Origin: Saccharothrix sp. ALI-22-I
Lineage (GTDB): Bacteria; Actinomycetota; Actinomycetes; Mycobacteriales; Pseudonocardiaceae
Assembly: GCF_001984175.1 (NCBI RefSeq)
Contig: NZ_MTQP01000065.1
Coordinates: forward strand, 124,001 to 188,000
Direction: 5' to 3'
Length of the DNA: 64,000 bases
Part shown: one piece after another, positions 13,642 to 51,145 of the stretch
Layout of the letters: each line of letters opens with the position of its first letter
Position numbering within the stretch: the stretch's first letter is position 1
Made by a program: the position numbers and the translations under genes
The notes under the pieces: model-generated
What the model was told of the DNA's origin: nothing
What the model saw: the letters and a program-made list of their open reading frames with translations, nothing else
The model's database searches: none

Positions 13642-13767
13642 CGCGTGTCCAACGTCCAAAACGCGCGTGTCCAACGTTCAGAACGCGCGTGTCCAACGTT
13701 GGGAACGCGCGTGTCCAACGTTCAGAACAGGCGAGTTGAACGCTCAGAACACGCGACCTGCACGTTT
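13642..13767 (+). repeat. 22-bp intergenic repeat array R1 (6 units, forward)
   Basis: Direct units repeat at exactly 22 bp (GTGTCC at 13645, 13667, 13689, 13711; the variant GAGTTG at 13733), followed by a degenerate last unit. The core is CGTGTCCAACGTTC. The array fills the gap between convergent PLD and dinG genes. There are no unique spacers and no nearby cas genes, so it is not a CRISPR array. Confidence 0.92.
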
Positions 13768-13786
13768 GTGTGGTGATGGCGAAGGG

Positions 13787-15814
13787 TCAGGCACTCGCCG
13801 CGTCGAGGCGCTTGAGCGCCGCCCGCACGACCTCCGGGTCGTACGTCGTCCAGAACGGCGGCAGCGAGGCGCGCAGGAACCCGCCGTACCGTGCCGTGGC
13901 CAGGCGCGAATCCAGAACGGCCACGACACCCTTGTCGCTCATCGACCTCAGCAGCCGCCCCGCGCCCTGAGCCAGCAGCAGCGCCGCGTGGGTCGCCGCA
14001 ACGGTGAGGAAACCGTTGCCGCCCCTGGACTCCACCGCCTTCTGCCGCGCCGACGCCAACGGGTCGTCCGGCCGGGGGAACGGGATGCGGTCCATCACCA
14101 CGAGTTGCAGCGCAGGCCCCGGAACGTCCACGCCCTGCCACAGCGACAACGTGCCGAACAGGCACGTCTCCGCATCCTCGGCGAACCGCTTCACCAACTG
14201 CCCCGTGGCGTCGTCACCCTGGCACAGCACCGGGTAGTCGACCTTGCCCCGCAACGCCTCGGCTGCCGCCTTCGCCGCACGCATGGACGAGAACAACCCC
14301 AAAGTACGCCCACCCGCCGCGTTCACCAGACCCTCGATCTCGTCCACATAGGACGGAGGCAGCCCGTCACGCCCCGGCGGCGGCAAATGCCTCGCCACAT
14401 ACAGAATCCCACTGCTGCCGTGCTCGAACGGCGAGCCGACGTCCAGACCGCTCCACCGCGGCCCGCTCACGTCCGACGGCGGTTCCTTGTCGGTCGCCGT
14501 CCCCTCGGCCTTCTTCGCGTTGGAAGCCGCCGGCAGCCCCCACTGCCGGGCCAACGTGTCGAACGTGCCACCCAACGTGAGCGTCGCCGACGTCAGGATT
14601 GTGGTCCGCTTCGCGAACAGCCGCTCCCGCAGCAGCCCGCCGACCCCCAACGGCGCCACCCGCAGTGACGGCGCCTTGTTGCGATCCGCGAAGTCACCCG
14701 ACACCCACACCACGTCGTGGTCCTCGTCGAACGCCGTCAGAATCCGCGCCGCGCAGTCGTGCACGTCGTCCAACAGCGACAACGCCAGCTTGCGTGACGT
14801 CGCGCCGTCCACGTCCTCCTTGCGCTCCGGCCCCAACGACGTGATGCACGCGTGCGCCGCGTCCTTCGTCGCCCGCAACGCCCCGGCGAGCGCCTGAGGC
14901 AGGCTGTCGAGCCGGCCGACCGGCAACTCCTCCAGGATCATCGCCAGGCCGTCGCTCGCCTCGGCCATCCGGTCGGCCACGTTCTGGTCGATGAGCCGCC
15001 CGCAACGCCGTGCGGCCGTGGCCACCAGGGACGCGCTCAGCTCCTCCGTCGCCACCGACGTCACCCGGTCGACCAGGTCGTGCGCCTCATCGATCACGAC
15101 CACGTCGTGGTCCGGCAGGACCTGGTAGCCCTCCAGGGCGTCCACGGCGAGCATCGCGTGGTTGGTCACCACGACGTCCGCCTTGCCCGCCTCGGCACGT
15201 GCCTTCTCCGCGAAGCAGTCCACGCCGATCGGGCACTTGTTCACGCCGAGGCACTCGCGCGCCGTCACCGAGACCTGCCGCCACGCCTGGTCCGTGACGC
15301 CCGGCACGAGCTCGTCCCGGTCACCGGTCTCGGTGTCGGACGACCACTCGTGCAGGCGCTTGACCTCACGGCCCATCTTGGACACCGCGAACGGGTCGAA
15401 CAGGCCCGCTTCCTCCGGCTCGTCCGGCGCACCGGTGTGCAGGCGGTGCATGCACAGGTAGTTGCGGCGGCCCTTGAGGATGGCGAACCGCGGCTCGCGG
15501 CCCAGCTCCTTGCGCAACGCCTTGGCGAGCCTGGGCAGGTCGCGGTCCACGAGCTGGCGTTGCAGGGCGATGGTGGCGGTGGAGATGACGACCGTCGACT
15601 CCTCGGCCACCGCGTGCCGCAGCGACGGCACCAGGTACGCCAACGACTTGCCGGTGCCGGTGCCCGCCTGGACGGCCAGGTGCTCGCCCGTCCGGATCGA
15701 CCGCTCGACCGCTTCGGCCATGTCGACCTGGCCTTGGCGTTCGGCTCCGCCTACCGCTTCCACGGCGACGGCGAGCAACGTTCTGGTGTCGGGGATCGCG
15801 GTGGTGGCGGGCAC
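13787..15814 (-). CDS. dinG: DinG-family ATP-dependent DNA helicase (Fe-S, XPD-like)
   Basis: 675 residues of superfamily 2. Walker A AGTGTGKS (near residue 45), the DEAH box VVVIDEAHDL and a C-terminal motif QGAGRLLRS are present. The cysteines in NYLCMH, ARECLGVNKC and GVDCF fit the four-Cys iron-sulfur cluster. DinG helicases unwind DNA and R-loops in repair and replication. I place the start at the GTG at 15814 (MPATTAIPDTRTLL); the frame stays open further upstream only through the repeat array, which gives meaningless sequence. In M. tuberculosis the dinG gene is next to pncB1, which here lies about 5 kb away. Confidence 0.92.
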   Translation of the reverse strand: MPATTAIPDTRTLLAVAVEAVGGAERQGQVDMAEAVERSIRTGEHLAVQAGTGTGKSLAYLVPSLRHAVAEESTVVISTATIALQRQLVDRDLPRLAKALRKELGREPRFAILKGRRNYLCMHRLHTGAPDEPEEAGLFDPFAVSKMGREVKRLHEWSSDTETGDRDELVPGVTDQAWRQVSVTARECLGVNKCPIGVDCFAEKARAEAGKADVVVTNHAMLAVDALEGYQVLPDHDVVVIDEAHDLVDRVTSVATEELSASLVATAARRCGRLIDQNVADRMAEASDGLAMILEELPVGRLDSLPQALAGALRATKDAAHACITSLGPERKEDVDGATSRKLALSLLDDVHDCAARILTAFDEDHDVVWVSGDFADRNKAPSLRVAPLGVGGLLRERLFAKRTTILTSATLTLGGTFDTLARQWGLPAASNAKKAEGTATDKEPPSDVSGPRWSGLDVGSPFEHGSSGILYVARHLPPPGRDGLPPSYVDEIEGLVNAAGGRTLGLFSSMRAAKAAAEALRGKVDYPVLCQGDDATGQLVKRFAEDAETCLFGTLSLWQGVDVPGPALQLVVMDRIPFPRPDDPLASARQKAVESRGGNGFLTVAATHAALLLAQGAGRLLRSMSDKGVVAVLDSRLATARYGGFLRASLPPFWTTYDPEVVRAALKRLDAASA

Positions 15815-15868
15815 GGCGAAGACCGTACCCGCCCACCCCGTCACAGTCGGCCGGACCCGCGTTTCGTG

Positions 15869-15956
15869 TTCTGAGCGTTGAATTCGGGTGTTCCGAACGT
15901 TGGACACGCGCGACGCGAACGTTGGACACGCGCGTTCCGAACGTTGGACACGCGGG
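15869..15956 (-). repeat. 22-bp intergenic repeat array R2 (4 units)
   Basis: Four units at exact 22-bp spacing (15869, 15891, 15913, 15935) in reverse orientation. It lies 22 bases past the bioY stop and upstream of dinG, both of which are leftward genes. Confidence 0.92.
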
Positions 15957-15978
15957 TTGTGGAGGTGGGGCTCTGGGG

Positions 15979-16554
15979 TTACTTGCGGTTGAGGAGGGCC
16001 CAGGTGGTGGGGAGGAGGCCGGCGGCCAGGGCGATCTTGAGTGCGTCGCCCAGGAGGAACGGGGTTACGCCCAGTTGCAGGGCCTTGGTGAAGCCGACGC
16101 CGGCGGCGGCCATCAGCCACGGCACACCGCACGCGTAGATCGCCAGGTTGCCCAACGCCATCGTGCCGACGGTGCGCAACGGCGTCCGGTCACCGCCACG
16201 CGCGGCCAGGTGGCCGACGAGCGCGCCGGCGAACACGAACCCGACCACGTACCCGAGCGACGCGGGCGTGCCCGACGAACCGCCCTGGAACCACGGCACA
16301 CCGGCGACACCGGCGATCAGGTAGAGCACCATCGACGCGCCACCGCGCTGCCACCCGAGGGCGGCGCCCACCAGCAGGGCGGCGAACGTCTGGCCGGTGA
16401 TCGGCACCGGGCTGCCCGGCACGGGCAGCGCGACCTGGGCGGCCAGCCCGGTCAGCCCGGCGCCCGCGACGACCAGGGCGATGTCACGCGCGAGAGCGCC
16501 CGGGACCAAGTCGGCGAGCACCGCGCGACGGCCGGGAACGGCGAGGACGGACAC
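15979..16554 (-). CDS. bioY: Biotin transporter substrate-binding subunit BioY
   Basis: 191 residues with about six hydrophobic helices and the BioY signature region VPGSPVPITGQTFAALLVGAALG. BioY is the S component that captures biotin in ECF-type transport and sometimes works alone. No bioM or bioN gene is adjacent, so it either uses a shared energy module encoded elsewhere or acts alone. The start is a GTG with GGGAGG about 6 bases upstream. I see no biotin-operator palindrome in the upstream region. The gene lies inside the otherwise conserved dinG-pncB neighbourhood, as an insertion relative to mycobacteria. Confidence 0.92.
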   Translation of the reverse strand: MSVLAVPGRRAVLADLVPGALARDIALVVAGAGLTGLAAQVALPVPGSPVPITGQTFAALLVGAALGWQRGGASMVLYLIAGVAGVPWFQGGSSGTPASLGYVVGFVFAGALVGHLAARGGDRTPLRTVGTMALGNLAIYACGVPWLMAAAGVGFTKALQLGVTPFLLGDALKIALAAGLLPTTWALLNRK

Positions 16555-17024
16555 GAGGGACCTCCCAGAGGGATCGACTTCTCCCGCAGGCTAACCGGCG
16601 ATCACTCGTTCGGTCTTTGTCGAAGCTCTACAAAGTTGGCCACGTCACGCAGGAACGCGCGCCACGACGTGATGGGCACGGAGGCCGGCCGCAGCCGTCA
16701 CCAGGACGACGACGACCACCCGGTTGAGATGCGCTGAGGTGTTCGGTACGGAGCACAGCAAACGTCACTGAACGCTTCCGTTTCATCGATCGGGGATAGC
16801 CCGATAGGGCTGCTGATGGTCATCGGACATGCGTACGGCAAACATCACCCCCGGATCGAGTGACAAAGTGAAACCTTTTCGGTCTTGTTGACCCACTTTC
16901 GGTGGCAGCAGTTGGGCGATTCGAGTGGTGGTCGTCCCCCTTTACGGTCGGCAATCTCTAACTCAACCGGTTGAGCGTCGATTGGGGTGATTGTCTCGAT
17001 ACGAGGTTTCGAGAAAGGAGTTCG
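16555..17024. other. 470-bp intergenic region between divergent bioY and a secreted-protein gene
   Basis: I see no convincing gene. A small hairpin AGCCC-GATA-GGGCT is at about 16798-16811. The right half is noticeably less GC-rich than its surroundings. The last 15 bases hold AAAGGAG, the ribosome site for the gene at 17025. Promoters for both divergent genes should be here, but no clear -35/-10 pair stands out. Confidence 0.5.
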
Positions 17025-17828: not shown

Positions 17829-17830
17829 GC

Positions 17831-17998: not shown

Positions 17999-18005
17999 CG
18001 CGCGT

Positions 18006-18047: not shown

Positions 18048-18114
18048 CGCACCCGCTCTGCACTACCTGCGCTTGGACTACTCGGCTTTGGACTATTTGA
18101 ACGTAGGGAGCAAG

Positions 18115-19410: not shown

Positions 19411-20070
19411 ATGAAGCAGATCAGAGCGCGCCGGGTCGGGGCTCTGACCGCGGCGCTCGTGCTCGGCCTGGTCGTCGCGCCGCCCGCGTGGGCGGCCAAC
19501 CCGGCGGGCGTCGCGTCGGTCGGCTCCGCCGAGTTCGGCAAGGCGGGCAAGCAGGTCAGCGTGCCGCCGCTGGCGCCGTGCGCGGTGGACGGGACGACGT
19601 CCAACAAAGCCGAGCCGGTGGTCCGCCCGGGCGTCCGGTTCGGCGCCGGGACGTCGTCGTGCACCACGACGGTCGTGGACCCGGCGAACAGCACCACGAC
19701 CACGACGTCCGAGGCGACCGGCACCGATTTCGAACTGTCCGCCCTGATCCCGGCGGGCGGCCCACGCCTGCGCGTGGCCAGGTGGAAGGTCACCTGCACC
19801 GCAACCGAGTCCGGCACCAACGCCGGCCTGTCGCTCGGCGGCATTCAAGGCTTCCCCGGCCTACCGGAGCAGCTCCCCGCCAACCACGTCCACGAGGTCA
19901 AAGACCCCCACGGCACCCTCCTGGCCACCGCCACCTTCGGCGAGACGACCCTCCCCACCCTTAACGACGGCAGCATCGCGATGAACCTCCTCCACCTCCG
20001 CTTCACCCCCGCCTCCACCCTCACCGGCGAAGTACTCCTAGGCACCACCGCCTGCTCACCCACCCCCTGA
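19411..20070 (+). CDS. Secreted protein of unknown function
   Basis: 219 residues with a clear Sec signal peptide (about 1-28, MKQIRARRVGALTAALVLGL... AWAA). The mature part has four cysteines (LAPCAVDG, TSSCTTTV, KVTCTAT, TTACSPTP), so two disulfides are possible. The composition suggests a beta-rich exported domain. I do not recognise the family, and there is no wall-sorting motif or C-terminal helix, so it is probably released. GGGATGGAAACCGAAAGGG upstream gives a weak ribosome site. A 22-bp repeat array begins 12 bases after the stop. Confidence 0.75.
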   Translation: MKQIRARRVGALTAALVLGLVVAPPAWAANPAGVASVGSAEFGKAGKQVSVPPLAPCAVDGTTSNKAEPVVRPGVRFGAGTSSCTTTVVDPANSTTTTTSEATGTDFELSALIPAGGPRLRVARWKVTCTATESGTNAGLSLGGIQGFPGLPEQLPANHVHEVKDPHGTLLATATFGETTLPTLNDGSIAMNLLHLRFTPASTLTGEVLLGTTACSPTP

Positions 20071-20081: not shown

Positions 20082-20320
20082 AACTCCCAAGAGTCGAACC
20101 CCCAGACCCCGAGAGTCGAACCTTCAGGCCCCGTGAGTTCAACGCTCAGGACACCCGTGCCCCGTCCTGAGCGTTGAACTCGCCCTACCTGAGCGTTCGA
20201 CTCTCGCGACGCGAACGTACGACTCACGCGCGTGTCCAACGTTGAGAACGCGCGTGTCCAACGTTCAGAACAGGCGTGTCCAACGTTCGGAACACCCGAG
20301 TTGAACGCTCAGAACGTGCG
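20082..20320. repeat. 22-bp intergenic repeat array R3, with internal inversions
   Basis: About ten units: three forward (GAGTCGAACC.., GAGTTCAACGCTCAGG), three reversed (GTCCTGAGCGTTGAACTC onward), then four forward (GTGTCCAACGTT.. three times, GAGTTGAACGCTCAG once). It fills the gap between convergent genes 19411-20070 and pncA. Confidence 0.9.
20135..20181. terminator. Perfect 18-bp inverted repeat formed by two opposed units of array R3
   Basis: GAGTTCAACGCTCAGGAC (20135-20152) and GTCCTGAGCGTTGAACTC (20164-20181) are exact reverse complements around an 11-base loop. Position between convergent genes suggests a bidirectional terminator, but this is inference. Confidence 0.65.
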
Positions 20321-20333: not shown

Positions 20334-20903
20334 TCAGCTGAGGCGGGGTGTTCCGGACAGCGTCACGCCGGCCTCGCCGAGCTGCGTCAACGCGTTGTCC
20401 ACCGTCGTGGACGCCACCCCGGCCGTCAGGTCCAGCAGCACGGTCGTCGAGAACCCGGCGGCAGCGGCGTCCAACGCGGTGGCCCGCACGCAGTGATCGG
20501 TGGCGATCCCCACCACGTCCACCTGTTCCACCCCACGCGCCCGCAACCAGTCCGCCAGCCGCTCACCCGCCCCCGACGCCCCCTCGAACCCCGAGTACGC
20601 CGCCGCGTAAGCCCCCTTGGAGAACACCGCCTCCACCGCCGTCACGTCCAACTCCGGGTGGAACGACGCCCCGGCCGTCCCCGCCACGCAGTGCACCGGC
20701 CACGAGTCCACGAAATCCGGCGTCTCGCTGAAGTGCGACCCCGGCTCCACGTGATAATCACGGGTCGCCACGACGTGGTCGTACGACGAGGACGCCACGT
20801 GCGCCGAGATCGCCGCCGCGACGGCCGCACCACCCGCCACCGCCAGGGAGCCGCCCTCGCAGAAGTCGTTCTGCACATCCACCACGATCAGCGCCTTGCT
20901 CAT
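20334..20903 (-). CDS. pncA: Nicotinamidase (isochorismatase-like hydrolase)
   Basis: 189 residues of the cysteine hydrolase superfamily. Catalytic Asp is in VVDVQNDF, the metal-site histidines in ATRDYHVEPGSHF, the catalytic Lys in VFSKGAYAAAYSGF, and the nucleophile Cys in GIATDHCVRATALDA. PncA converts nicotinamide to nicotinate for NAD salvage. The start is the ATG at 20903, overlapping the stop of pncB (TGATG). The product of one gene is the substrate of the next, so pncB-pncA form a Preiss-Handler salvage operon. In mycobacteria only pncB sits here. Confidence 0.93.
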   Translation of the reverse strand: MSKALIVVDVQNDFCEGGSLAVAGGAAVAAAISAHVASSSYDHVVATRDYHVEPGSHFSETPDFVDSWPVHCVAGTAGASFHPELDVTAVEAVFSKGAYAAAYSGFEGASGAGERLADWLRARGVEQVDVVGIATDHCVRATALDAAAAGFSTTVLLDLTAGVASTTVDNALTQLGEAGVTLSGTPRLS

Positions 20904-23140: not shown

Positions 23141-23709
23141 TGCTGGTCGGGCGCGCGCCAGGGGTGGCGGTGCTGTTGACGCCTGCCGGCGCGGTGGCCG
23201 GGGTGGACGTTCGCGGTGCGCCGGTAGGGACGCGTGAGCTGGACTTGCTGGACCCGTCGACGTTGGTGCAGCGGGTGCACGCGGTGGTGCTGGCCGGTGG
23301 TGGACTGGCGGCTGCCGACGGGGTCGTGCGGTGGTTGGCGGAGCGCGGGCACGGGTTCCCGGTGGGCGTGCGGCCGTTCGAGGTCGTGCCGATCGTGCCC
23401 GCGGCGGCGGCTTTGGGGCTCGCCTCGGGCGACGGGTACGCGGCCTGTGAAGCGGCGTCCGACGACGTGCCCACGGCCCTGGCCGTCGTCGGCGACACAG
23501 CGGTGGGCCTGGTCGTGGTGGATGCCGAAGTCGGTCCGGCCGAATGCCGAAGGGTCGCGATGTCGGCGCACGACGGGTTCGCACGAGCCGGCGTGACGGT
23601 GCCCGCCACCGTGTTCGCCGTGGCCACAGGCGCGCCAACCGGCACCCCGTTGAACGACCTCTGCACCACCGCCGCCGACGCCCTGGAACACGCAGCCCAA
23701 AACCCCTAA
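23140..23709 (+). CDS. Internally shortened P1 (DmpA-like) peptidase
   Basis: 189 residues. The first ~100 match P1 peptidases (VAVLLTPAGAVAGVDVRG, GTRELDLLDPS, VVLAGGGLAAADGVVRWLAERG, VPIVPAAAA) and the end matches too (AMSAHDGFARAG, TVFAVATGAPTG). Full-length relatives are over 300 residues. The central part, with the GAGTGA..GG segment and the self-cleavage nucleophile, is missing or unrecognisable, so classical aminopeptidase activity is unlikely. It is the syntenic counterpart of M. tuberculosis Rv1333. It may be decaying or may have a binding role. Array R4 begins 18 bases after the stop. Confidence 0.75.
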   Translation: MLVGRAPGVAVLLTPAGAVAGVDVRGAPVGTRELDLLDPSTLVQRVHAVVLAGGGLAAADGVVRWLAERGHGFPVGVRPFEVVPIVPAAAALGLASGDGYAACEAASDDVPTALAVVGDTAVGLVVVDAEVGPAECRRVAMSAHDGFARAGVTVPATVFAVATGAPTGTPLNDLCTTAADALEHAAQNP

Positions 23710-23726: not shown

Positions 23727-23836
23727 ATTCCGAACGTTCAACTCACCCATTCCGAACGTTGGACACGCGCGTTCTGAGCGTTGGACACGCGCGTTCTGAG
23801 CGTTGAACTCATCGGTCCTGGGGGTTCGACTCTCGG
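23727..23836 (-). repeat. 22-bp intergenic repeat array R4 (5 units, reverse)
   Basis: Units start at 23727, 23749, 23771, 23793 and 23815, exactly 22 bp apart. Cores read GAACGTTCAACTC, GAACGTTGGACAC, GAGCGTTGGACAC, GAGCGTTGAACTC and GGGGTTCGACTC. It lies between two rightward genes. Confidence 0.93.
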
Positions 23837-28504: not shown

Positions 28505-29275
28505 ATGCAATTGACGGTGCTCGGGTGCGCGGGCAGTGCCCCGGGACCTGATCTGCCCACCTCCGGGTACCTGGTGGAGGCGGGCGGCGTCCGGATCGTG
28601 GTGGAACTGGGCAGCGGGGTGTTCAGCGCGCTCATGCGGCACTGCGACCCGTTCGACATCGACGCCGTCCTGCTGTCGCACCTGCACCTCGACCACTGCG
28701 CCGACTTCAGCTCGCTCACCGTCTACCGGCGTGAGCACCCCGAGCCGCCCTACGACGTCACCGAACGCCGGCTGCCGGTGTTCGCGCCGGCGCACGCGCC
28801 GTCCCGCCTCGCCGCCGCGCACGCCGCCGGCCGCGCCGAGTTGGCGGCGACGGACTTGACCGACACGTTCGACTTCGTGCCGCTCGCACCGGGGAAGTAC
28901 GCGGTGGGGCCGGTGGACGTCGAGGTGGCCGCCATGCGGCACATCTGCGAGGCCTACGGGTTCCGCATCTCGTACGAGGGCGCGTCGCTGGTGTTCTCCG
29001 GCGACACGGTCCCGTGCCCGGAGTTGGTCCGGCTCGCCGAAGGCGCCGACCTCCTGCTGGCCGACTCGGCGTGGCGGGAACAGGCGGGCCGCGCCAACTA
29101 CCTGCACATGAGCGGCCGCGAAGCGGGCGAGGTGGCCACGTCCGCCGGCGCGCACCGCCTCGTCCTCACCCACGTGCTGCCCTGGTCCGACCGCGACGGC
29201 ATCCTCAAAGACGCCGAAAACGCCTTCCCCGGCCCCGTCACCCTCGCCACCCCCGGCGCCACCTACACCCTCTAA
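28505..29275 (+). CDS. MBL-fold metallo-hydrolase (paralogue of the gene at 31887)
   Basis: 256 residues of the metallo-beta-lactamase superfamily, RNase Z/PDE-like branch. Metal ligands are in LLSHLHLDHCADF (HxHxDH), AAMRHICEAYGFR, FSGDTVPC and VLTHVLPWSD. It shares much sequence with the protein encoded at 31887 (LTVLGC.GS.PGP, VELGSGV, AYGFRI), so the two are paralogues. The group includes cAMP phosphodiesterases. This copy is not part of the conserved mycobacterial block. The start at 28505 is used; a 5' extension in frame looks non-coding. Array R5 starts right after the stop. Confidence 0.88.
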   Translation: MQLTVLGCAGSAPGPDLPTSGYLVEAGGVRIVVELGSGVFSALMRHCDPFDIDAVLLSHLHLDHCADFSSLTVYRREHPEPPYDVTERRLPVFAPAHAPSRLAAAHAAGRAELAATDLTDTFDFVPLAPGKYAVGPVDVEVAAMRHICEAYGFRISYEGASLVFSGDTVPCPELVRLAEGADLLLADSAWREQAGRANYLHMSGREAGEVATSAGAHRLVLTHVLPWSDRDGILKDAENAFPGPVTLATPGATYTL

Positions 29276-29278: not shown

Positions 29279-29410
29279 CCGAGAGTCGAACCCCAGACCC
29301 CGAGAGCCGAACGTTCAGAACGCGCGTGTCCTACGTTGGGAACGCGCGTGTCCAACGTTGGGAACGCGCGTGTCCTACGTTCGGGACGGCTGAGTTGAAC
29401 GTTCAGGAGT
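29279..29410 (+). repeat. 22-bp intergenic repeat array R5 (6 units, forward)
   Basis: GTGTCC units at 29326, 29348 and 29370 and GAGTTG at 29392 are 22 bp apart; two GAG(T/C)CGAAC variants precede them at 29283 and 29304. The array occupies the whole gap between convergent MBL and SMP-30 genes. Confidence 0.92.
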
Positions 29411-29412: not shown

Positions 29413-30258
29413 CTAGCCGGCGAAGGCGGTGGAGGGCAGGCCTTCGCCTGCGCCGGGGATCACCAGGACCGAACCGGCCAGCTCGCTCAACGCGTCCTCG
29501 CTCAGCCCGACGCGAGCGGTCGTCACGTAGAGGTCGGTGAAGTCGATGCCGCCGAAGCAGCACGCGGTCGGCTGGCCCACCGGGAGTTCGATCTCCACGT
29601 CCAGTCGCCCGTCCGGCGTGTACCGGTGCACCGCCGCCCCGCCCCACAACGCCACCCAGACCGCCCCGGACGAGTCCACGGTGAGCCCGTCCGGCAACCC
29701 CCGGTGCACGTCGGCCAGCGGACGGCGGTTCGTCGCCTCACCGGTGTCGCGGTCGAAGTCCAGCACGTCGATCCGCCGTTCCGCCGAGTCGACGTAGTAC
29801 ATGAGCTTGGCGTCGGGGCTCCAGCCGATGCCGTTGCTGACGCTCACCTTGTCCAGCACGACCTTCGCGTCACCGCTGGGCTGCACCCGCGCCAGCCAGC
29901 CGCCCGGCTCCTCGTCGTAGCGCATCGTGCCCGCCCACAGCCGCCCCGCCGGGTCGACCGCCGCGTCGTTGCCGCGCACGCCGTCCCGCGCCCAGTAGAC
30001 CAGCCACGTCTTGGCGCCGTCCCGGTCGATCAAGGCCACCCCGTCGCGCAGGTTCACCACCAGACCACCGCTGGACCGGGGCTTCGCCGCACCCACGTGC
30101 TGCGGCACTTCGAGGACCGCGTCGTCGTCACGCGACGGGCTGTAGCGGTGCACCTCGTTGCCGAGGACGTCCACCCAGAGCAACGTTCCGCTGGCGTGGT
30201 CCCACGTGGGGGCCTCACCCAGCGCCGCTTCGGCCCGCACCGCCACTTCGATCGACAC
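29413..30258 (-). CDS. SMP-30/gluconolactonase family protein
   Basis: 281 residues of the six-bladed beta-propeller lactonase family. The metal ligands are in ALGEAPTWD (Glu), [18 protein letters not shown] (Asn), SNGIGWSPD (Asn) and [11 protein letters not shown] (Asp). Members hydrolyse sugar lactones or related esters. The run [14 protein letters not shown] near the C-terminus is typical. It is transcribed alone, convergent to the MBL gene and divergent from rhomboid. The substrate cannot be told from the sequence. Confidence 0.9.
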
Positions 30259-43814: not shown

Positions 43815-44443
43815 TCCTGGCCGAGGACTCGACGTTGCTGCGCGAGGGCCTGGTGCGGCTGCTGGTCGAGGAGGGGCACGACGTCGTGGCGGCCGTGGGC
43901 GACGCGGAAGCGCTGGTCAGCGCGGTGGCGGTGCACCGGCCGGACGTCGTGGTGACCGACGTGCGGATGCCGCCGACGAACTCCGACGAGGGCATGAAGG
44001 CCGCGTTGGAGATCCGCCGGCGATTCCCCGGCGTCGGCGTGCTGGTGCTGTCGCAGTACGTCGAGCAGCGCTACGCCGTCGACCTGCTCACCGAGCACGC
44101 CGACGGCGTCGGCTACCTGCTGAAGGACCGGGTGGTCCAGGTGGAGGAGTTCCTGGACGCGCTGCGCCGGGTCGGCGCCGGCGACGTGGCGTTCGACCCG
44201 GAGGTGGTGCGACGGCTGCTGGCCCGCACCAGCCACCCGTTGGACGTGCTCACCGAGCGGGAACGCCAGGTGCTGGCGCACATGGCGGAGGGGCACACGA
44301 ACAACGCCATCGCGTCCCGGCTGCACGTGTCGCGCAGCGCGGTGGAGAAGCACATCAACTCGATCTTCGACAAGCTCGGTCTGTCCGATGTGGACGGCTA
44401 CAGCCGGCGGGTGCTGGCGATCCTGCGCTACCTGCGCGCTTGA
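43805..44443 (+). CDS. NarL/FixJ-family response regulator
   Basis: 212 residues. Receiver domain with acidic pair AEDS, phospho-acceptor D in VVTDVRMPP and Lys in GYLLKDR; LuxR-type HTH with LTERERQVLAHMAEGHTNNAIASRLHVS-like sequence near 150-195. It is the partner of the overlapping kinase. The MPPTNSDEG loop after the phospho-Asp is typical of the DesR/LiaR-like group. Target genes are unknown; the divergent StyA-like gene is a candidate only by position. It overlaps convergent dedA by 16 bases. Confidence 0.94.
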   Translation: MRVILAEDSTLLREGLVRLLVEEGHDVVAAVGDAEALVSAVAVHRPDVVVTDVRMPPTNSDEGMKAALEIRRRFPGVGVLVLSQYVEQRYAVDLLTEHADGVGYLLKDRVVQVEEFLDALRRVGAGDVAFDPEVVRRLLARTSHPLDVLTERERQVLAHMAEGHTNNAIASRLHVSRSAVEKHINSIFDKLGLSDVDGYSRRVLAILRYLRA

Positions 44444-45066
44444 GCCTGTTCCACGTCCTCGTCCCCGGACTTCTTCCTGGTGATCCGTGACACCACGAAC
44501 CACCCCACGGCCAGCACCACCAGACCCAGCACGACCTTCGACACGACACCCATGTACTGCTCGACCAGGTGGTAGTTGGCGCCCAGGACGTACCCGGCGA
44601 GGATCAACGCGGTGTTCCAGATCAAGCTGCCCGCCGCCGTCAGCAGCACGAAACCGGGCAACGGCATGCGTTCCACGCCGGCCGGGATGGAGATGAGGCT
44701 GCGGAAGATCGGCACCATCCGGCCGAAGAACACGGTCGCCTTGCCGTGCCGGGCGAACCACTCCTCCGTGCGGTCCACATCGGACACCTTCACCAGCGGC
44801 ATCCGTTGTGCGATCGCCCTGATCCGGTCACGGCCCAACATCGCGCCGAGGTAGTACAGCGCGAGTGCGCCCGCGACCGACCCGGTGGTGGTCCACAGGA
44901 TCGCGGCGATCAGGCTCATCCCACCCTGACTCGCGGTGAACCCGGCCAGCGGCAGGAACAACTCGCTGGGCAGGGGCGGGAACAGGTTCTCCATCGCGAT
45001 CGCGATCCCGGCGCCGGGCGCGCCGAGCGTTTCCATCAGGTCGGTTACCCATGAGACGACATCCAT
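44428..45066 (-). CDS. DedA-family membrane protein
   Basis: 212 residues, about five to six hydrophobic helices. ENLFPPLPSELFLPLAGF and FARHGKATVFFGRMVPIFRSLISIPAGVERMP-like sequence (about residues 105-137) are DedA signatures, including the G-R-x-x-P-x-x-R motif. DedA proteins scramble or flip undecaprenyl phosphate and phospholipids. The C-terminus is basic then acidic. I chose the ATG at 45066. It stands alone. Confidence 0.92.
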   Translation of the reverse strand: MDVVSWVTDLMETLGAPGAGIAIAMENLFPPLPSELFLPLAGFTASQGGMSLIAAILWTTTGSVAGALALYYLGAMLGRDRIRAIAQRMPLVKVSDVDRTEEWFARHGKATVFFGRMVPIFRSLISIPAGVERMPLPGFVLLTAAGSLIWNTALILAGYVLGANYHLVEQYMGVVSKVVLGLVVLAVGWFVVSRITRKKSGDEDVEQAQARR

Positions 45067-45135
45067 GATCTTCACATTACGAACGCGCCGAGGCGACCAC
45101 CATGAAGCTGACCGCACACCGGGGTGTGGAAAACC

Positions 45136-45457
45136 TCAGTGCTGCTTGTTACCGGGTGCGGCCTTCTTGGCGGCGTACCCGGCCAAGCCTTTGGCGTATC
45201 GCGAGATTACGGCCTGGAGCACCAGCCGGTACAGCCAACCCGTCCCGCGCGTCTTCGGCTCGAACGACGAGTGCAGGCGGATCGCCGTGCCGTCGCCGTC
45301 CGGCGCGAGGTCGATGAACGCCTGGTAGTCGCGAATGGCGAGACCCGACAGCAGGACGTAACCCACCCGCCGGTTCGGCGTCAGTTCGACGATCTCCTCC
45401 CTCGTGAGCGCTGTGCGGCCTCGGTTGTGGATACCCGGACCTCGCCGACCCCATGCG
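45136..45457 (-). pseudogene. 5'-truncated SRPBCC (polyketide-cyclase-like) protein gene
   Basis: The reverse strand encodes the C-terminal ~95 residues of an SRPBCC-fold protein: REEIVELTPNRRVGYVLLSG, DLAPDGDGTAIRLHSSFEP, then a helical end (LAGYAAKKA). Homologues have about 60 more N-terminal residues. The frame hits a stop (TGA) near 45460 with no start codon before it, and the 22-bp repeat array R7 begins within a few bases. The only in-frame start is a GTG at 45366, which would give a 76-residue fragment lacking the first strands. I read it as truncated. Confidence 0.7.
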
Positions 45458-45469: not shown

Positions 45470-45626
45470 AGCGTTGAATTCGGGGTACCTGAGCGTTCGA
45501 CTCGCGACGCGAACGTTCGACTCACGCGCGTGTCCAACGTTCGGAACGCGCGTGTCCAACGTTCGGAACGCGCGTGTCCAACGTCGGGAACACCCGAGTT
45601 CAACGCCCAGAACATGCGACCTGCGG
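45470..45626. repeat. 22-bp intergenic repeat array R7, reverse then forward
   Basis: Two to three reversed units (GAGCGTTCGACTC, GAACGTTCGACTC) are followed by three GTGTCCAACGT units and one GAGTTCAACGC unit, ending with a GCGACCTGC tail like that of array R1. It lies between the truncated SRPBCC gene and the cobW start. Confidence 0.9.
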
Positions 45627-45647: not shown

Positions 45648-46598
45648 GTGAAGCGGATCCCGGTGATCGTGGTCGCGGGGTTCCTCGGCTCCGGCAAGAC
45701 CACGCTGCTCAACCACCTGCTCAGCGGCAGTCGCGGTACTCGGATCGGCGTGGTGGTCAACGACTTCGGCGCCATCGGTATCGACGCGATGAGCGTGGCC
45801 GGACAGGTCGACTCCACGGTCTCCCTCAGCAACGGCTGCCTGTGCTGCGCGGTCGACGTCAGCGAACTCGACGAGATGCTGGCCAAGCTCGACTCGCTGG
45901 TCGACGTCATCGTGATCGAGGCCAGCGGCCTGGCCGAGCCCCAGGCCATGGCACGGATGGTCCTCGCGAGCGAGAACCCGCGCCTGACCTACGGCGGCCT
46001 GGTGCTGCTGGTGGACGCGGCGGAGTTCCCGGACGACCTGGCCAAACACCTGCGCGTGGCGGACCTGGTGGTGCTGAACAAGGTCGACCGCGTCGACGAC
46101 CCGTCGGCGTTGGCCGCCGAGATCGACCGGCTCAAGCCGGGCGTGCCCGTGCTGCTCTCGTCGTTCGGCCGCGTCGACCCGGCCCTGCTGTTCGACCCAC
46201 GCCCGCGCGAACGGATCGGCCAGCTGTCCTTCGAGGACCTGCTGGACGAAGAGCACGACCACGTGCGCTACGACAGCGTCGAGTTCACCGGTGAAGCGAT
46301 GAACCCGGTGCGGCTCATGGCGTTCCTCGACGCCCGCCCGAAGGGTCTGTACCGGATCAAGGGCTTCGTGCGGTTCGACGTGCCGGGGCACCGGCAGCGC
46401 TTCAGCCTGCACACCGTCGGCGCGTTCCTGCGGTTCGAACGCTCCGCCTGGCCGGGACCCCGGCGCACCGAACTGGTGCTGATCGGCACGGGCTTGGACG
46501 TCGCCGCGATCAAAGCCGAGCTGGCCGCCTGCGTCGAACCGAACCCGTCCGAGGTGGACCCGCAGTCGATGCTGGAAGTCCTGCGCTACACCGCATGA
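45648..46598 (+). CDS. CobW/COG0523-family GTPase (metallochaperone)
   Basis: 316 residues. Walker A GFLGSGKTTLLNHLL, the metal-binding motif GCLCC, Walker B-like IVIEASGLAEP and the specificity motif NKVD identify the G3E GTPase family; a CobW C-terminal domain ends the chain (RIKGFVRFDVPGHRQRFSLHTVG). Members deliver zinc or cobalt to target proteins. I see no Zur box in the short space between array R7 and the start. The start is the GTG at 45648. A bidirectional terminator overlaps the stop. Confidence 0.9.
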   Translation: MKRIPVIVVAGFLGSGKTTLLNHLLSGSRGTRIGVVVNDFGAIGIDAMSVAGQVDSTVSLSNGCLCCAVDVSELDEMLAKLDSLVDVIVIEASGLAEPQAMARMVLASENPRLTYGGLVLLVDAAEFPDDLAKHLRVADLVVLNKVDRVDDPSALAAEIDRLKPGVPVLLSSFGRVDPALLFDPRPRERIGQLSFEDLLDEEHDHVRYDSVEFTGEAMNPVRLMAFLDARPKGLYRIKGFVRFDVPGHRQRFSLHTVGAFLRFERSAWPGPRRTELVLIGTGLDVAAIKAELAACVEPNPSEVDPQSMLEVLRYTA

Positions 46599-46630: not shown

Positions 46631-46639
46631 CGGTGACGG

Positions 46640-46713
46640 TGGGCTCGGAGAGACTCGAACTCTCACTGGCACGGACCTAAACCGTGTGCCTCTGCCAATT
46701 GGGCTACGAGCCC
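46640..46713 (-). tRNA. tRNA with UAG anticodon (Leu by codon) but a short variable loop
   Basis: The reverse strand folds as a 74-nt tRNA: acceptor GGGCTCG/CGAGCCC, D-arm with GG at the loop, anticodon stem CACGG/CCGTG around TTTAGGT (anticodon TAG), a 5-nt variable loop CCAGT, and T-arm GAGAG-TTCGAGT-CTCTC. The CCA end is not encoded (A then CCG). UAG decodes CUA leucine, but bacterial leucine tRNAs normally carry a long variable arm, which is absent here. The 5' end overlaps the stop codon region of the gene at 46704-47147, so it must be processed from that transcript or have its own promoter inside it. Confidence 0.85.
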
Positions 46714-47147: not shown

Positions 47148-47262
47148 GACGCTCCTCCACTTGAATGGAAACATCGTTATGGAACCATCGACCGGCCGGT
47201 CCGGTCAACGGCGTTCCGGCGTCTGATCTACGGTTGTGCCCAGACCGCAGCTAGGAGGAGAT

Positions 47263-47484
47263 GTGGCCCGCGATCCCGACACCATCCAGCGCGAGATCGA
47301 GCAGGCTCGTGACGCGCTGGCCGCGACCCTGGACGAGCTGGGGACCAGGGCGAATCCCCAGCGCTTCGTCGAGTCCGGCAAGGAGAGCGTGCGCGCGAAG
47401 CTCGACGAACCCAAGATCCGGTACTCGCTGATCGCGGTGGCCGTGCTCGTCGGGTTCGCCTTGCTGCGCAAGCTCTTCCGGTGA
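47263..47484 (+). CDS. DUF3618 membrane-anchored small protein
   Basis: 73 residues. ARDPDTIQREIEQARDALAA is the DUF3618 signature (RDP..I...I...R..L), followed by TLDELGTRANPQRF and one C-terminal hydrophobic helix (LIAVAVLVGFALLRKLF). Function unknown; in actinobacteria the family sits next to DUF1469/phage-holin-like proteins, which is not the case here. The GTG start has GGAGGAG 3-4 bases upstream. Confidence 0.88.
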   Translation: MARDPDTIQREIEQARDALAATLDELGTRANPQRFVESGKESVRAKLDEPKIRYSLIAVAVLVGFALLRKLFR

Positions 47485-47485
47485 C

Positions 47486-48100
47486 CTAATGCCCCTTGGC
47501 GACGAGGGGCAGCAGCACCTGATCCACCACGCGGTCCACGAACGCGAGGTCCAATGGGTCACCGGTGAGCATCAACCGGTAGATCAGGGCCGCGCCCGCG
47601 ATTTCGACCGCCATGCCGCGCGGCGCGTCCTGGCGCAGTTCGCCACGTTCCTCGGCGCGCTCCAGGATGCGGCGCAGCACGTCGCGCTGCGCGATGAGGA
47701 ACGTGTCGCGGAACGCCGCCGCCAGCTCCGGCTCGTGCGGCAGCTCGCCGACCAGCGCCTGCGCCGCCTTGCCGATCGGGCCGGACAGGAACGCGGCGAA
47801 CGCGCTCAGGAACTCCCGCAGGTCGCCGCCGAGCGATCCGGTGTCCGGCTCGGCCAGGTTCTGCTGCGCCAGCTGTGTGCACGTGTCGATGACCAGGTCG
47901 AGCTTGGACTCCCACCGCCGGTAGATCGTCGCCTTGCCCGCACGGGCGCGTGCCGCGACGGCGTCCATCGTCAACGCCCGGTAGCCGACTTCGGCCATCA
48001 CTTCCAGCGCCGCCTGCCGCAGCGCGTCGTCCCGGCTGGCGTCCCTCGGTCTGCCTCGCTGTGGGGTCCGTGCCGGCCCGCTGTACACCGGTGTGGCCAT
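47486..48100 (-). CDS. TetR/AcrR-family transcriptional regulator
   Basis: 204 residues. The N-terminal HTH (about 25-70) reads ALEVMAEVGYRALTMDAVA and GKATIYRRWESKLDLV, typical of TetR regulators. The C-terminal ligand domain belongs to the TetR_C group with ALVGELPHEPELAAAFRD. The ATG at 48100 has AGGAG 8 bases upstream. It ends 1 base after the DUF3618 gene (convergent). No target gene is adjacent. Confidence 0.92.
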   Translation of the reverse strand: MATPVYSGPARTPQRGRPRDASRDDALRQAALEVMAEVGYRALTMDAVAARARAGKATIYRRWESKLDLVIDTCTQLAQQNLAEPDTGSLGGDLREFLSAFAAFLSGPIGKAAQALVGELPHEPELAAAFRDTFLIAQRDVLRRILERAEERGELRQDAPRGMAVEIAGAALIYRLMLTGDPLDLAFVDRVVDQVLLPLVAKGH

Positions 48101-48622
48101 TTTGCGCTCCTGTCGCCTTTGGCCGGACATCCTAGGCCGCGGCGCCCGGGGTTCAGACTTCGATCACCTGCTCATGAGCGGTACTCGCTTCGGTTTCACC
48201 CGTTGGGGTGGTGGCGGGAGGTCCGCGCGGGGGTGGGCAGGTAGGCCACCGAGAACACGAACGCGTCGCCGTTCAGCAGGTGTGCGACAGCCGGTCGGTG
48301 CACCCGACCGCGATCTCGCCCAATCGTCGCCATCGCGCCGGTAGTTCGCGGTGATGGTGAGTGTGGACATGCCTCGGCCTTTCGTCCGTCGTACTTACCC
48401 ATCTGACCGGCGTTCGGCGGCGAAATCGTGCTCTGTCCTTCCATCGAGTGAGGAGTGTTCCTTCGGAGGTGTGGTTTCGTGTCCGGTGCTCGGGTCCCCT
48501 GCGCGTGGCAATCCGAAGAGGTGGTCACGAAACGGATGTACTCGGAGTGCTTGATCGATAACGCGAGGTTGCGGACTTTCCGGCAGACCATATGGAGCAA
48601 ATCTTTGGTCCGGGAGGTCTTG
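48101..48622. other. 520-bp region without a convincing gene
   Basis: A possible 68-codon leftward ORF (48164-48370, starting MSTLTITANYRRDGDDW) has a plausible start but quickly loses any recognisable pattern, and a shifted frame (AHLLNGDAFVFSVAYLP) looks more protein-like, so this may be a frameshifted remnant. The stretch 48400-48620 is less GC-rich than the surroundings and probably contains the promoter of the small secreted-protein gene. Confidence 0.4.
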
Positions 48623-48804
48623 ATGAGTCGTCGTTCGACCGTTGCAGTGTGCCTGGCGTTCGGGGGTGCTGGCGGCGCCCGGTGTGGCGTCGGCCGAACC
48701 GTCGTGGGACCCCCCACGTGCCGCCCTACGTGCTCGACGTGGCTCGCGGGCAGGACATGCTCGCTGGCACGCTGATGGTCCTGCTCAGCCGCCGGCGCGC
48801 GTGA
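48623..48804 (+). pseudogene. Frameshifted small secreted protein
   Basis: ATG at 48623 with GGGAGG upstream begins a signal peptide (MSRRSTVAVCLAF). Removing one G from the G5 run at 48662-48666 continues it as GVLAAPGVASAEPSWD. Removing one C from the C6 run at 48710-48715 then continues as PHVPPYVLDVARGQDMLAG and MVLLSRRRA to a stop at 48804. Both breaks are +1 in homopolymers, so either a recent pseudogene or sequencing errors. The restored protein would be about 59 residues, secreted and of unknown function. Confidence 0.55.
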
Positions 48805-48806
48805 TC

Positions 48807-49415
48807 TCAGGCCGTGAGCCGGCTAGCCACGCCCTTCCACACGACGTCCATGATGTACCTGGTCGCGAGCGCCGGTCCCACCTCGGGCCTGCGCTCGCAC
48901 CACAGCGCCAGCCGTTCCGCCGAACCCACGATGACCTCGGCGAACGCCTCCGCCTCGACCGGGTCCACGTCGGAGGAGAAGCCCGTGATCACCGCCGCGA
49001 TCAGGTCGGTCTGCTGCCGCCGGATGCCCTCGACCTCCGTCACGGTCGACGGCACGGTGATCGCGGCCTCCTGTCGCAGCAACGCCCACGACTGCTTGTG
49101 CTCGCCGATGAACTCGAAGAACGCCATCAGGCCGTGCCGCATCGCCTCTTCCGGCCCTTCCGTGCCGGTGAAGGCCCGGTGCGTGCGGTCGAGCAGTTCC
49201 GCGCGCGCCCGGTGGATGCACGCGATGAGCAGGCCCTCCTTGGAGCCGAAGTACTCGTAGAGCATCGGCTTGGACACGCCGACCTGTTCGGCGATCTCGT
49301 CCATCGACGCCGCCTGGTACCCGCGTTCGGCGAAGACGCCCTCGGCGATGTCGAGCATCTGCGCCATGCGCTGGGCCTTCGGCATGCGCCGGCGGCTCGG
49401 CTCGGTGGAGGTCAC
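48807..49415 (-). CDS. TetR/AcrR-family transcriptional regulator
   Basis: 202 residues. HTH region MLDIAEGVFAERGYQAASMDEIAEQVGVSKPMLYEYFGSKEGL-like (about 20-63) is a standard TetR N-terminus. The C-terminal domain contains WALLRQEAAITVPS and a final helix WCERRPEVGP. It starts with GTG and diverges from the monooxygenase at 49502 with an 86-base gap containing a palindrome, so it most likely represses that gene and itself. Confidence 0.92.
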   Translation of the reverse strand: MTSTEPSRRRMPKAQRMAQMLDIAEGVFAERGYQAASMDEIAEQVGVSKPMLYEYFGSKEGLLIACIHRARAELLDRTHRAFTGTEGPEEAMRHGLMAFFEFIGEHKQSWALLRQEAAITVPSTVTEVEGIRRQQTDLIAAVITGFSSDVDPVEAEAFAEVIVGSAERLALWCERRPEVGPALATRYIMDVVWKGVASRLTA

Positions 49416-49464
49416 GAAGTCGAGACTACCGGAGACTACCGAAGGTAACTTACTTCCAGTAACC

Positions 49465-49476
49465 TACTCGCGAGTA
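49465..49476. promoter_or_regulatory. Palindrome TACTCGCGAGTA between tetR and the monooxygenase gene
   Basis: A perfect 12-bp palindrome lies 26 bases before the monooxygenase ATG and 50 bases from the regulator start. Close by are the tandem repeat GAGACTACCG (49422 and 49432) and an imperfect inverted pair GGTAAC...GTAACC (49444-49464). This arrangement fits a TetR operator over divergent promoters. Confidence 0.55.
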
Positions 49477-49501
49477 TGTAGCCGGACGTTGGAGGACGGG
49501 C

Positions 49502-50989
49502 ATGCACCGAGCGGTCAAAGTCCTGGTCGTCGGCACGGGCTTCGCGGGCCTGGGCATGGCGATCGAGCTCAAGCGCACCGGGGAACGCGACTTCGTCGTG
49601 CTGGAGAAGGCGAACGACCTCGGCGGCACCTGGCGGGACAACTCCTACCCCGGCTGCGCCTGTGACGTCCCGTCGCACATGTACTCGTTCTCGTTCGAGC
49701 TCAACCCGCGCTGGACGCGCATGTTCGCCCGGCAGCCGGAGATCTGGGACTACCTCAAGCGGGTGGCCGAGAAGTACGGGCTGCGCGAGTACATCCGGTT
49801 CAACAGCAAGGTGAACGGCGCCCGTTGGGACGAGGACGCGAAGGTCTGGCACGTCACCACCGCGAACGGCGACACGTACACCGCGAAGTCGGTGGTGGCG
49901 GGCGTCGGGGCGTTGCACATCCCGAACATCCCGACCCTGCCGGGCATCGACCGGTTCGAGGGCAAGACGTTTCACTCGGCCGAGTGGGACCACGGCTACG
50001 ACCTCAAGGGCAAGAAGGTCGCCGTGGTTGGCACGGGGGCGTCCGCGATCCAGTTCGTGCCGCAGATCGCGGACGACGTCGCGCGGCTGACGTTGTTCCA
50101 GCGCACGCCGCCGTGGATCATGCCCAAGGTCGACCGGGCCATCAACACGTGGGAGCAGAGGCTGTTCCGGGCCCTGCCGATCACGCAGCGGCTGTACCGG
50201 AACCTCGTGTACTGGACGCGGGAGTCGAGCGCGCTCGGCTTCGCGGTGAACCCGAAGATCATGGAGTTCGCGCAGGGCATCGCCAAGCGGCACATGCGCG
50301 GTCAGGTCGAGGACGAGGCGTTGCGGGCCAAGCTGACGCCCGACTACACCCTGGGCTGCAAGCGGGTGCTGCTCAGCAACGACTACTACCCGGCGTTGAA
50401 CAAGCCCAACGTGGACGTGGTGACCGACGGAATCGCCGAGGTGCGGGCGCACAGCGTGGTGGACCGGGCGGGCGTCGAGCACGAGGTCGACGTGATCATC
50501 TACGGCACCGGGTTCCACGTGGTCGACTCGTTCGACTACCTGGACGTCACCGGGAAGGGTGGCGTGGACCTGGCCGGGAAGTGGCGGGAGAAGGGCATCG
50601 AGACCTACTACGGGATCACGGTCTCGGGCTTCCCGAACCTGTTCTTCCTGCTCGGGCCGAACACCGGTCTGGGGCACAACTCGGTGGTGTTCATGATCGA
50701 GTCGCAGATCCGGTACGTCCGCCAGTGCCTGGAGCTGCTGGACCGGCACCAGGCCGACGAGCTGGACGTGCGCCCCGACGTGCAGGCCCGGTTCAACCGG
50801 CAGTTGCAGCGCAAGCTGACCAGGGGCGTGTGGACCGAGGGCGGTTGCAAGAGCTGGTACCTCGACGCGCAGGGCATCAACCGGACCGTGTGGCCCGGCT
50901 TCACCTGGCGTTACTGGATGCGCACCAAGACCGTGCGCGCCGAGGACTACACCCTCACCCGAGCCCGCCGCACCCGCGTCCCAGCCTGA
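49502..50989 (+). CDS. Flavin-binding monooxygenase, Baeyer-Villiger type
   Basis: 495 residues. The FAD motif VVGTGFAGLGMAIEL starts the chain, then LGGTWRDNSYPGCACD, the BVMO fingerprint FEGKTFHSAEWDH (F-x-G-x3-H-x3-W-D) near residue 158, and the NADPH motif AVVGTGASAIQFVP. It probably inserts oxygen next to a ketone or oxidises a related substrate using NADPH and O2. A divergent TetR gene suggests substrate-induced expression. The substrate is unknown. Array R8 follows directly after the stop. Confidence 0.92.
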   Translation: MHRAVKVLVVGTGFAGLGMAIELKRTGERDFVVLEKANDLGGTWRDNSYPGCACDVPSHMYSFSFELNPRWTRMFARQPEIWDYLKRVAEKYGLREYIRFNSKVNGARWDEDAKVWHVTTANGDTYTAKSVVAGVGALHIPNIPTLPGIDRFEGKTFHSAEWDHGYDLKGKKVAVVGTGASAIQFVPQIADDVARLTLFQRTPPWIMPKVDRAINTWEQRLFRALPITQRLYRNLVYWTRESSALGFAVNPKIMEFAQGIAKRHMRGQVEDEALRAKLTPDYTLGCKRVLLSNDYYPALNKPNVDVVTDGIAEVRAHSVVDRAGVEHEVDVIIYGTGFHVVDSFDYLDVTGKGGVDLAGKWREKGIETYYGITVSGFPNLFFLLGPNTGLGHNSVVFMIESQIRYVRQCLELLDRHQADELDVRPDVQARFNRQLQRKLTRGVWTEGGCKSWYLDAQGINRTVWPGFTWRYWMRTKTVRAEDYTLTRARRTRVPA

Positions 50990-50994
50990 CCTGA

Positions 50995-51145
50995 CCTGAA
51001 CGTAGAACTCACCGGTCCCGAACGTTCGACTCTCGCGTTCTGAACGTTCAACTCGGGTGTTCCGAACGTTGGACACGCGTGTTCTGGACGTTGGACACGC
51101 GGGTGTGTCCAACGTTGGTGTTCGGTGTGTCCTGCGTTCGGGGTG
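50995..51145. repeat. 22-bp intergenic repeat array R8, five reverse then two forward units
   Basis: Reversed units with cores GAACGTAGAACTC, GAACGTTCGACTC, GAACGTTCAACTC, GAACGTTGGACAC and GGACGTTGGACAC are followed by forward GTGTCCAACGTTG and GTGTCCTGCGTTC. It spans the gap between convergent monooxygenase and gatD genes. Confidence 0.92.
51088..51115. terminator. Hairpin at the orientation switch of array R8
   Basis: ACGTTGGACAC and GTGTCCAACGT form a perfect 11-bp stem with a 6-base loop GCGGGT, between two convergent genes. A bidirectional terminator role is inferred. Confidence 0.6.

Follow-up and report, generated by a model that had tools for sequence, protein, structure and literature searches.

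Which task could a short sequence perform that recurs, in phased arrays with a period of 22 bp, at seven places in a 64,000-nucleotide stretch (the window) of the genome of Saccharothrix sp. ALI-22-I? The best explanation we can offer, which we hold to be about evenly poised between right and wrong, is that the arrays are compound, bidirectional 3′-end or terminator elements, the body units of which are homogenised within each genome.

Seven Phased Arrays and Their Grammar

The seven arrays, their shared unit and the 22-bp period, initially proposed from the bare sequence, were all verified in the window (Table 1). We counted 39 units (GWGTNNNACGYTC, at most one mismatch) where about 40 had been estimated. 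A scan of the window for the core CGTGTCCAACGTTC, allowing three mismatches, gave 43 matches against 10.4 expected (standard deviation 3.2; maximum of 100 shuffles, 20), and the arrays belong to a genome-wide family: the exact 14-mer core occurs 214 times in the 10.3 Mb of the own genome, in which the reversed pattern is absent (0). According to the gene calls made in the present analysis, four arrays (1, 3, 5 and 7) are located between convergent genes, two (2 and 4) in co-directional gaps and one (6) between genes called divergent, of which the gene on the minus strand is a weak call without a Pfam match. The description "all intergenic" holds for these seven arrays, but their placement is non-random with respect to gene orientation.

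Table 1. Arrays and one predicted hairpin in the window; > and < give the orientation of successive units.
Feature	Position	Strand	Units	Details	Flanking genes
Array 1	13642..13767	+	>>>>>	4 body units GTGTCC.. then cap GAGTTGAACGCTC	convergent: 12213-13631(+) / 13787-15844(-)
Array 2	15869..15956	-	<<<<	3 body units and GAATTC cap; 27 bp off stop of upstream gene	co-directional; upstream gene 15979-16554(-)
Array 3	20082..20320	.	>><<<>>>>	flip spacings 34 and 19	convergent: 19411-20070(+) / 20334-20903(-)
Hairpin in array 3	20135..20181	.		perfect 18-bp stem, 11-nt loop; two facing cap units (>< flip)	
Array 4	23727..23836	-	<<<<	22 bp off stop of upstream gene	co-directional; upstream gene 23170-23709(+)
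Array 5	29279..29410	+	>>>>>		convergent: 28505-29275(+) / 29413-30258(-)
Array 6	45470..45626	.	<<>>>	flip spacing 19	called divergent: 45136-45366(-) / 45648-46598(+), CobW-like
Array 7	50995..51145	.	<<<<<>>	flip spacing 19	convergent: 49502-50989(+), FMO-like / 51151-51867(-), GatD-like

The units conform to GWGT-NNN-ACGYTC, and 263 of 265 neighbours in the same orientation are spaced by exact multiples of 22 bp. A run consists of one or more body units (GWGT-C[CG][AT]-ACGYTC followed by a 9-nt linker), and in 95 out of 104 runs a cap unit (GAGTT[CG]A or GAATTCA) stands at the end. The variants of the unit, such as GAGTTGAACGCTC, that had been listed alongside the core are indeed present, but they are mostly this cap, fixed in position at the 3′ end of the run. 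Likewise, the 22-bp period stands but the arrays are not plain tandems at one spacing, as three of the seven (arrays 3, 6 and 7) contain orientation flips. Head-to-head flips (<>) have a spacing of 19 bp in 19 of 24 instances, while tail-to-tail flips (><) are usually spaced by 33–35 or 54–55 bp (33–35 bp in 15 of 23); two runs joined at a flip make up a long inverted repeat. This grammar of phased runs, caps and flip spacings was absent from the sequence-only reading, which had pointed out that the AACGTT centre is self-complementary. We reject AACGTT as the functional centre: it is not conserved between species, and TACGTT is found at that place in others.

Arrays Lie behind Stop Codons

We surveyed 1.765 Mb from four Saccharothrix-type genomes for arrays of at least three units (reversed-pattern control, 0). 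Six C61 stretches from the own genome, ten from G013 and six from G018 outside the contiguous C3 tile were left out of the counts, because they had been picked for their arrays or were not contiguous. Amongst the 63 arrays found, 40 reside in convergent gaps (18% of the intergenic bases; binomial p 2e-15), 21 in co-directional gaps, and only one in a divergent gap, a class that accounts for 27% of the intergenic bases (p 5e-8); one more lies inside a called gene. The latter two arrays count against the terminator reading. In the own-genome sample, 26 arrays were found among 145 convergent gaps. The median distance from the array to the nearer stop in convergent gaps is 8 bp, the upstream stop is the nearer one for 19 of the 21 co-directional arrays, and at 10 of the 101 flanking gene ends a unit shares the final two bases of the stop codon.

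Flipped Arrays Are Predicted to Fold on Both Strands

Flipped arrays are predicted to fold far more stably than their shuffled versions: z is below −2 on each of the two strands (20 shuffles) for 24 of 26 in convergent gaps and for six of six in co-directional gaps, as against two of 29 divergent gaps without an array (divergent and co-directional gaps were sampled at 12%). Unflipped arrays, 12 of the 38 convergent ones folded, fold weakly (five of 12) and do not surpass convergent gaps that lack an array (51 of 93). A stable hairpin right behind the stop, a trait of terminators, is predicted for most flipped convergent arrays but not for most unflipped ones. Further results weigh against the terminator reading. 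Ordinary hairpins outside the array were not significantly rarer beside flipped (six of 27) than beside unflipped arrays (four of 12; p 0.69). Body units in mirrored positions are no more alike than at shuffled positions (702 observed versus 703.6 by permutation), which gives no register-specific hint that pairing has been selected for; the mirror-likeness that appears with all units included is due to the caps.

In the mechanism that we propose, a flipped array would be situated directly behind stop codons, mostly those of convergent genes, and a polymerase coming from either side would read it into a long GC-rich hairpin for which a U-tract would not be needed (I-shaped type). As the hairpin would be met from either side, both messages would be ended or trimmed at the array and convergent transcription units would be kept apart. 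That transcripts end at the arrays is inferred from positions, grammar, spacings, predicted folds and the ordinary hairpins at the equivalent place in some congeners. Of the three roles suggested earlier, the transcription-end element is the best supported, given the location at 3′ gene ends, the avoidance of divergent gaps and the two-sided hairpins of flipped arrays; however, the unflipped arrays fold weakly, and termination is therefore a putative role.

Strict phase and weakly folding unflipped arrays go beyond what hairpins alone account for, and they suit the second suggested role, a protein-binding platform, in which a protein would bind the conserved GWGT...ACGYTC every 22 bp, always on the same side of the helix, as a two-sided roadblock, an insulator, or a topoisomerase or nucleoid site between convergent genes. 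The near-invariant phase of same-orientation neighbours, the outer unit bases kept across genera while the triplet drifts, the retention of the same units in unflipped arrays and a run direction in co-directional gaps that, judged by eye, appears unrelated to that of the gene would all be consistent with such a platform. Nevertheless, unit-by-unit duplication would preserve the phase as well, the hairpins that result from the favoured flip spacings and the caps would be superfluous for a platform, and no candidate protein was identified in a search confined to Y1_Tnp; we consider this explanation unlikely.

A Species Dialect in Arrays Present at Some Orthologous Sites

The central triplet of the unit constitutes a species dialect, while the outer bases are conserved across genera. 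Orthologous arrays of different species resemble each other no more than unrelated arrays do. The best reading of this pattern is a putative homogenisation of the body units within each genome. It is conceivable, if somewhat doubtful, that the arrays represent a new class of genome-wide repeat, a dispersed terminator-like element in species dialect, whose copies at many loci would be altered together by a putative machinery dedicated to their recognition or conversion (molecular drive on gene ends).

The gap next to gatD, the locus of array 7, carries an array of at least three units in 14 of 25 congeners; arrays orthologous to array 7 are present in 13 of 24 congeners. A compact hairpin is predicted in all 14, and an ordinary compact hairpin occupies the gap in six of the 11 congeners without an array. 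At its central <> flip, positions 6 and 7 vary by species and match on both arms in nine and 11 of 12 rows, respectively (one row, G021, has a doubtful junction); these paired changes could stem from genome-wide homogenisation alone. At other loci, the orthologous gap is empty: array 1 has no counterpart in G015, nor has array 5 in G020, where the two genes overlap by 4 bp (CTAG), and in some orthologous pairs the stops overlap, leaving no space for a terminator (this reading covers the rows obtained for C62 and six selected loci).

Such presence and absence at orthologous pairs, with empty sites down to overlapping stops, would also be expected of a selfish dispersed repeat, the third role suggested, which would spread within and between genomes and survive where it is least harmful (behind stops and off promoters), the hairpins being a by-product. 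It also agrees with the species-wide turnover of the unit and with a scattered distribution across the family, in which 20 of 297 genomes and five of 46 genera have the arrays. On the other hand, deletion could explain absence in a species too, phase and cap grammar are strict, and positions common to many species, as at gatD, imply that the arrays are old and kept. Nor was a mobilising gene found: Y1_Tnp, the REP transposase, occurs in five of 25 congeners and is missing from 10 of the 13 array-rich ones, and the two own copies, in 3.4-kb loci, have no adjoining array, only one and two isolated one-mismatch matches in place of flanking inverted copies. We thus rejected RAYT-driven REPs, as well as recent spread by viruses (no array-pattern match in the viral contig collection) or plasmids (no match for array 6, the one queried, in the plasmid collection). 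All in all, a selfish repeat strikes us as rather unlikely.

Comparison with Known Repeat Systems

The earlier statement that no named family fits is borne out, since no array matched in Rfam 15 at the gathering threshold (the only match in the window is a tRNA at 46640-46713) and the open-access papers searched contain no such family. In 200 kb of genome G004, no family of inverted repeats with a 22-bp period turned up. CRISPR was rejected because the 9-nt linkers are themselves repeated rather than being unique spacers (AGAACGCGC, for instance, occurs 40 times in the own-genome sample). The BOX elements of Streptococcus pneumoniae (boxA-boxBn-boxC) are similarly modular, with a repeated middle module and distinct end modules, but their modules are longer than the array units.

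Comparable, too, are the REP/BIME elements (GTAG and CGTC families), which two papers describe as short extragenic repeats in alternating orientation at regular spacing, mainly in convergent or unidirectional gaps, and as proposed terminators or mRNA stabilisers (PMC3733652, PMC2817692). The arrays share these traits: they are extragenic, of high copy, and between convergent or unidirectional genes in 61 of 63 cases. They differ in their 22-bp period, in their capped runs and in having no unit-flanked RAYT-type gene; moreover, the 13-bp core plus linker is not a GTAG/CGTC-tagged palindrome of 20–40 bp, and no fixed position carries such a tag.

A core that stays the same while its dialect differs between species, with inverted pairs at gene ends, recalls the DNA uptake sequences (DUS) of Neisseriaceae, whose species-specific spelling and terminator-associated inverted pairs are reported in PMC3630211. 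By analogy, the unit could be a species-recognition sequence that serves competence or recombination, its inverted pairs acting as terminators second-hand. The same source has DUS often intragenic and in thousands (PMC3630211), far more copies than the Saccharothrix arrays, of which 62 of 63 lie outside called genes. We regard this possibility as very improbable. To our knowledge, DUS do not occur in tandem phased arrays.

The preferred reading, that of two-sided 3′-end elements, has a counterpart in the I-shaped (U-less) terminators of GC-rich bacteria: in Streptomyces clavuligerus, according to PMC8269248, hairpin 3′ ends often have no U-rich tract (353 of 535 structured ends), the GC-rich hairpin lying behind the stop and being able to serve both strands. 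Those are unrelated single hairpins, whereas in Saccharothrix one repeat family supplies the hairpins.

If true, a large share of the convergent gene pairs of this GC-rich genus would owe their two-sided transcription ends to a single repeat family, which would be an unusual route to evolving terminators. The concerted change of the triplet at orthologous positions constitutes a clean natural experiment on the homogenisation of dispersed bacterial repeats.

A 22-bp repeat family in directional runs

Re-examination of the sequence confirmed that the seven intergenic arrays of a 22-bp unit reported by the sequence-only reading are real, with 39 units in all (GWGTNNNACGYTC, at most one mismatch) where it had counted about 40. 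With up to three mismatches allowed, its 14-mer core has 43 hits in the window, above the 10.4 expected by chance. The exact 14-mer has 214 copies in the 10.3-Mb genome and its reversed pattern none; 40 arrays in a sample of 1.125 Mb extrapolate to roughly 370 genome-wide.

Coordinates of arrays and other features (strand where called)
Feature	Location	Remarks
Array 1	window 13642-13767	trailer at 13755-13767
Array 2	window 15869-15956	
Array 3	window 20082-20320	
Array 4	window 23727-23836	
Array 5	window 29279-29410	
Array 6	window 45470-45626	trailer at 45609-45624
Array 7	window 50995-51145	between FMO-like 49502-50989(+) and GatD-like 51151-51867(-)
Short gene call	window 45136-45366(-)	no Pfam match; beside array 6
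18-bp tandem repeat	window 6660-6930	10 copies, 96% match; low-complexity His/Asp/Glu-type tail of called ORF 6241-7116
27-bp repeat	window 56117-56239	4.6 copies, 93% match; between genes 54464-55876(-) and 56670-59639(+)
Y1_Tnp (IS200/IS605-type) gene	G000:C52:16101-16466	own genome (L041)
Y1_Tnp (IS200/IS605-type) gene	G000:C51:107701-108051	own genome (L042)

The unit reads GWGT-NNN-ACGYTC plus a 9-nt linker. Of 265 pairs of same-orientation neighbours, 263 are spaced by exactly 22 bp or a multiple of it, while changes of orientation have distances of their own: 19 bp in 19 of 24 <> flips (the rest 17, 2 and 30) and, among 23 >< flips, 33-35 bp in 15 and 54-55 bp in five (the rest 66, 12 and 14). 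Units with T at position 5 (GAGTT.., GAATT..), scored as caps in runs of at least two units, stand last in 95 of 104 runs, first in one of 104 and in the middle in 6 of 161; being mostly confined to the run end, they make the run a directional module in which a cap closes a series of body units. Beyond the cap, arrays 1 and 6 carry a trailer resembling AGAACAYGCGACCTGC, and the array-1 orthologues in two congeners (G018 and G020) have a similar one; it is possibly the defined right end of the element.

Position and predicted folding

Gene coordinates and orientations were taken from our own gene-calling script. Four array-bearing genomes, sampled over 1.765 Mb in all, yielded 63 arrays with three or more units: 40 lie between convergent and 21 between co-directional genes, one in a divergent gap and one within a called gene (congener G015); 200 kb of the comparison genome G004 held none, and the reversed control gave zero in all five. 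Convergent gaps make up 18.1% of intergenic bases yet hold 40/63 arrays (p 2e-15), and divergent gaps 27.2% yet 1/63 (p 5e-8). Convergent arrays lie a median of 8 bp from the nearer stop; co-directional ones have a median of 20 bp to the upstream stop and 74 bp to the next start, with 19 of the 21 lying closer to the stop. Were the short call beside array 6 no gene, this array would lie upstream of the CobW-like 45648-46598, the next gene being 44428-45075(-), and the orientation would still be divergent.

Whole gaps of 40-330 bp were folded against 20 dinucleotide shuffles. With z < -2 required on both strands, flipped arrays (those containing an orientation change) qualified in 24/26 convergent and 6/6 co-directional gaps, unflipped ones in 5/12 and 2/8. 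Array-free gaps qualified in 51/93 convergent, and, in a 12% sample of each, 2/29 divergent and 12/57 co-directional cases; convergent gaps of G004 did so in 10/14. A simpler hairpin count gave 23/27 flipped, 8/12 unflipped and 63/120 array-free convergent gaps, 10/17 in G004 and 2/40 after shuffling. Hairpins lying outside the array showed no difference between flipped (6/27) and unflipped (4/12) arrays.

Distribution and divergence

The exact 14-mer is nearly private to this genome: among 59 others, two congeners have three and one copies, the rest none. Of 21 genus genomes, 10 are rich in the relaxed unit GAGTYSAACGYTC, with 113 to 231 copies each, and the remaining ones have 0 to 10. A pattern of two units at the 22-bp period is present in 20 of 297 family genomes, including 15 of 25 of the genus and five of four other genera (82, 43, 10, 6 and 1 matches), its reversed control giving zero among the matches listed. 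Across the order this pattern matched 2 of 298 genomes, both of the genus, with no match in the 244 from other families. Titles and abstract openings in the open-access literature yielded no paper describing this repeat from Saccharothrix or its family.

The central triplet NNN is uniform within species and different between them: CCA leads in our genome and CCT in G020 and G015, with a mixture in G018; among the matches listed, obtained with a pattern allowing YNW only, it is CGT in G078, CCA in G190, mostly CTT in G232 and mostly TGA in G275. Orthologous arrays were compared by their body units over six loci and 20 species pairs. They agree at 10.70 of 13 positions, equal to any two arrays of the two species (10.70, p 0.90) and below different arrays within a single species (11.21, p 0.024). 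Judged from these sequences, a small sample, body units appear to change in concert.

An array lies 3′ of the FMO-like gene in 7 of 11 examined loci titled Saccharothrix, from a set of 27 read out of 80 retrieved. The gap between this gene and the GatD-like one carries at least three units in 14 of 25 congeners, all 14 with a compact hairpin; of the other 11, six have a compact hairpin, their gaps measuring 36-142 bp. One further gap is 5 bp, and the last four are long and fall outside the hairpin scoring. In G019 (locus L064) this gap holds repeats in 22-bp phase whose spelling has clearly diverged, which suggests that the family may extend beyond the reach of our search patterns. At L078 and L131, from species without the 22-bp family, the gap 3′ of the FMO-like gene is filled by short tandem repeats of other kinds (GGGCTGTCGCTGCC-like; GGCTCCT-like).

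Array 1 is present in our genome, G020 and G018; G015 has the two genes overlapping at their ends by CTAG, and the G004 gap is 17 bp. Array 5 is shared with G015, the site being CTAG in G020, 5 bp in G018 and, in G004, a 40-bp gap in which a GC-rich inverted repeat was seen by eye. Such presence and absence would look the same from gain or loss. At the array 3 locus, also by eye, an unflipped run is accompanied by an ordinary hairpin in G020 and G015; our genome and G018 have inverted units there. A tolerated selfish repeat is a less likely but plausible explanation; neither Y1_Tnp gene of our genome is flanked by arrays.

A candidate 3′-end element

Transcript termination would account for the position of the arrays, their avoidance of divergent gaps, the flips, and the hairpins that array-free congeners have at the corresponding site. 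It leaves the unflipped arrays and the strict 22-bp phase unexplained, and a mirrored-unit test added no support. That the arrays serve as a protein-binding platform, a role the sequence-only reading had entertained, is likewise less likely but plausible. The best single account, to which we give about an even chance, is that the arrays are a compound, two-sided 3′-end element whose flipped form would act as a terminator hairpin for both flanking genes.
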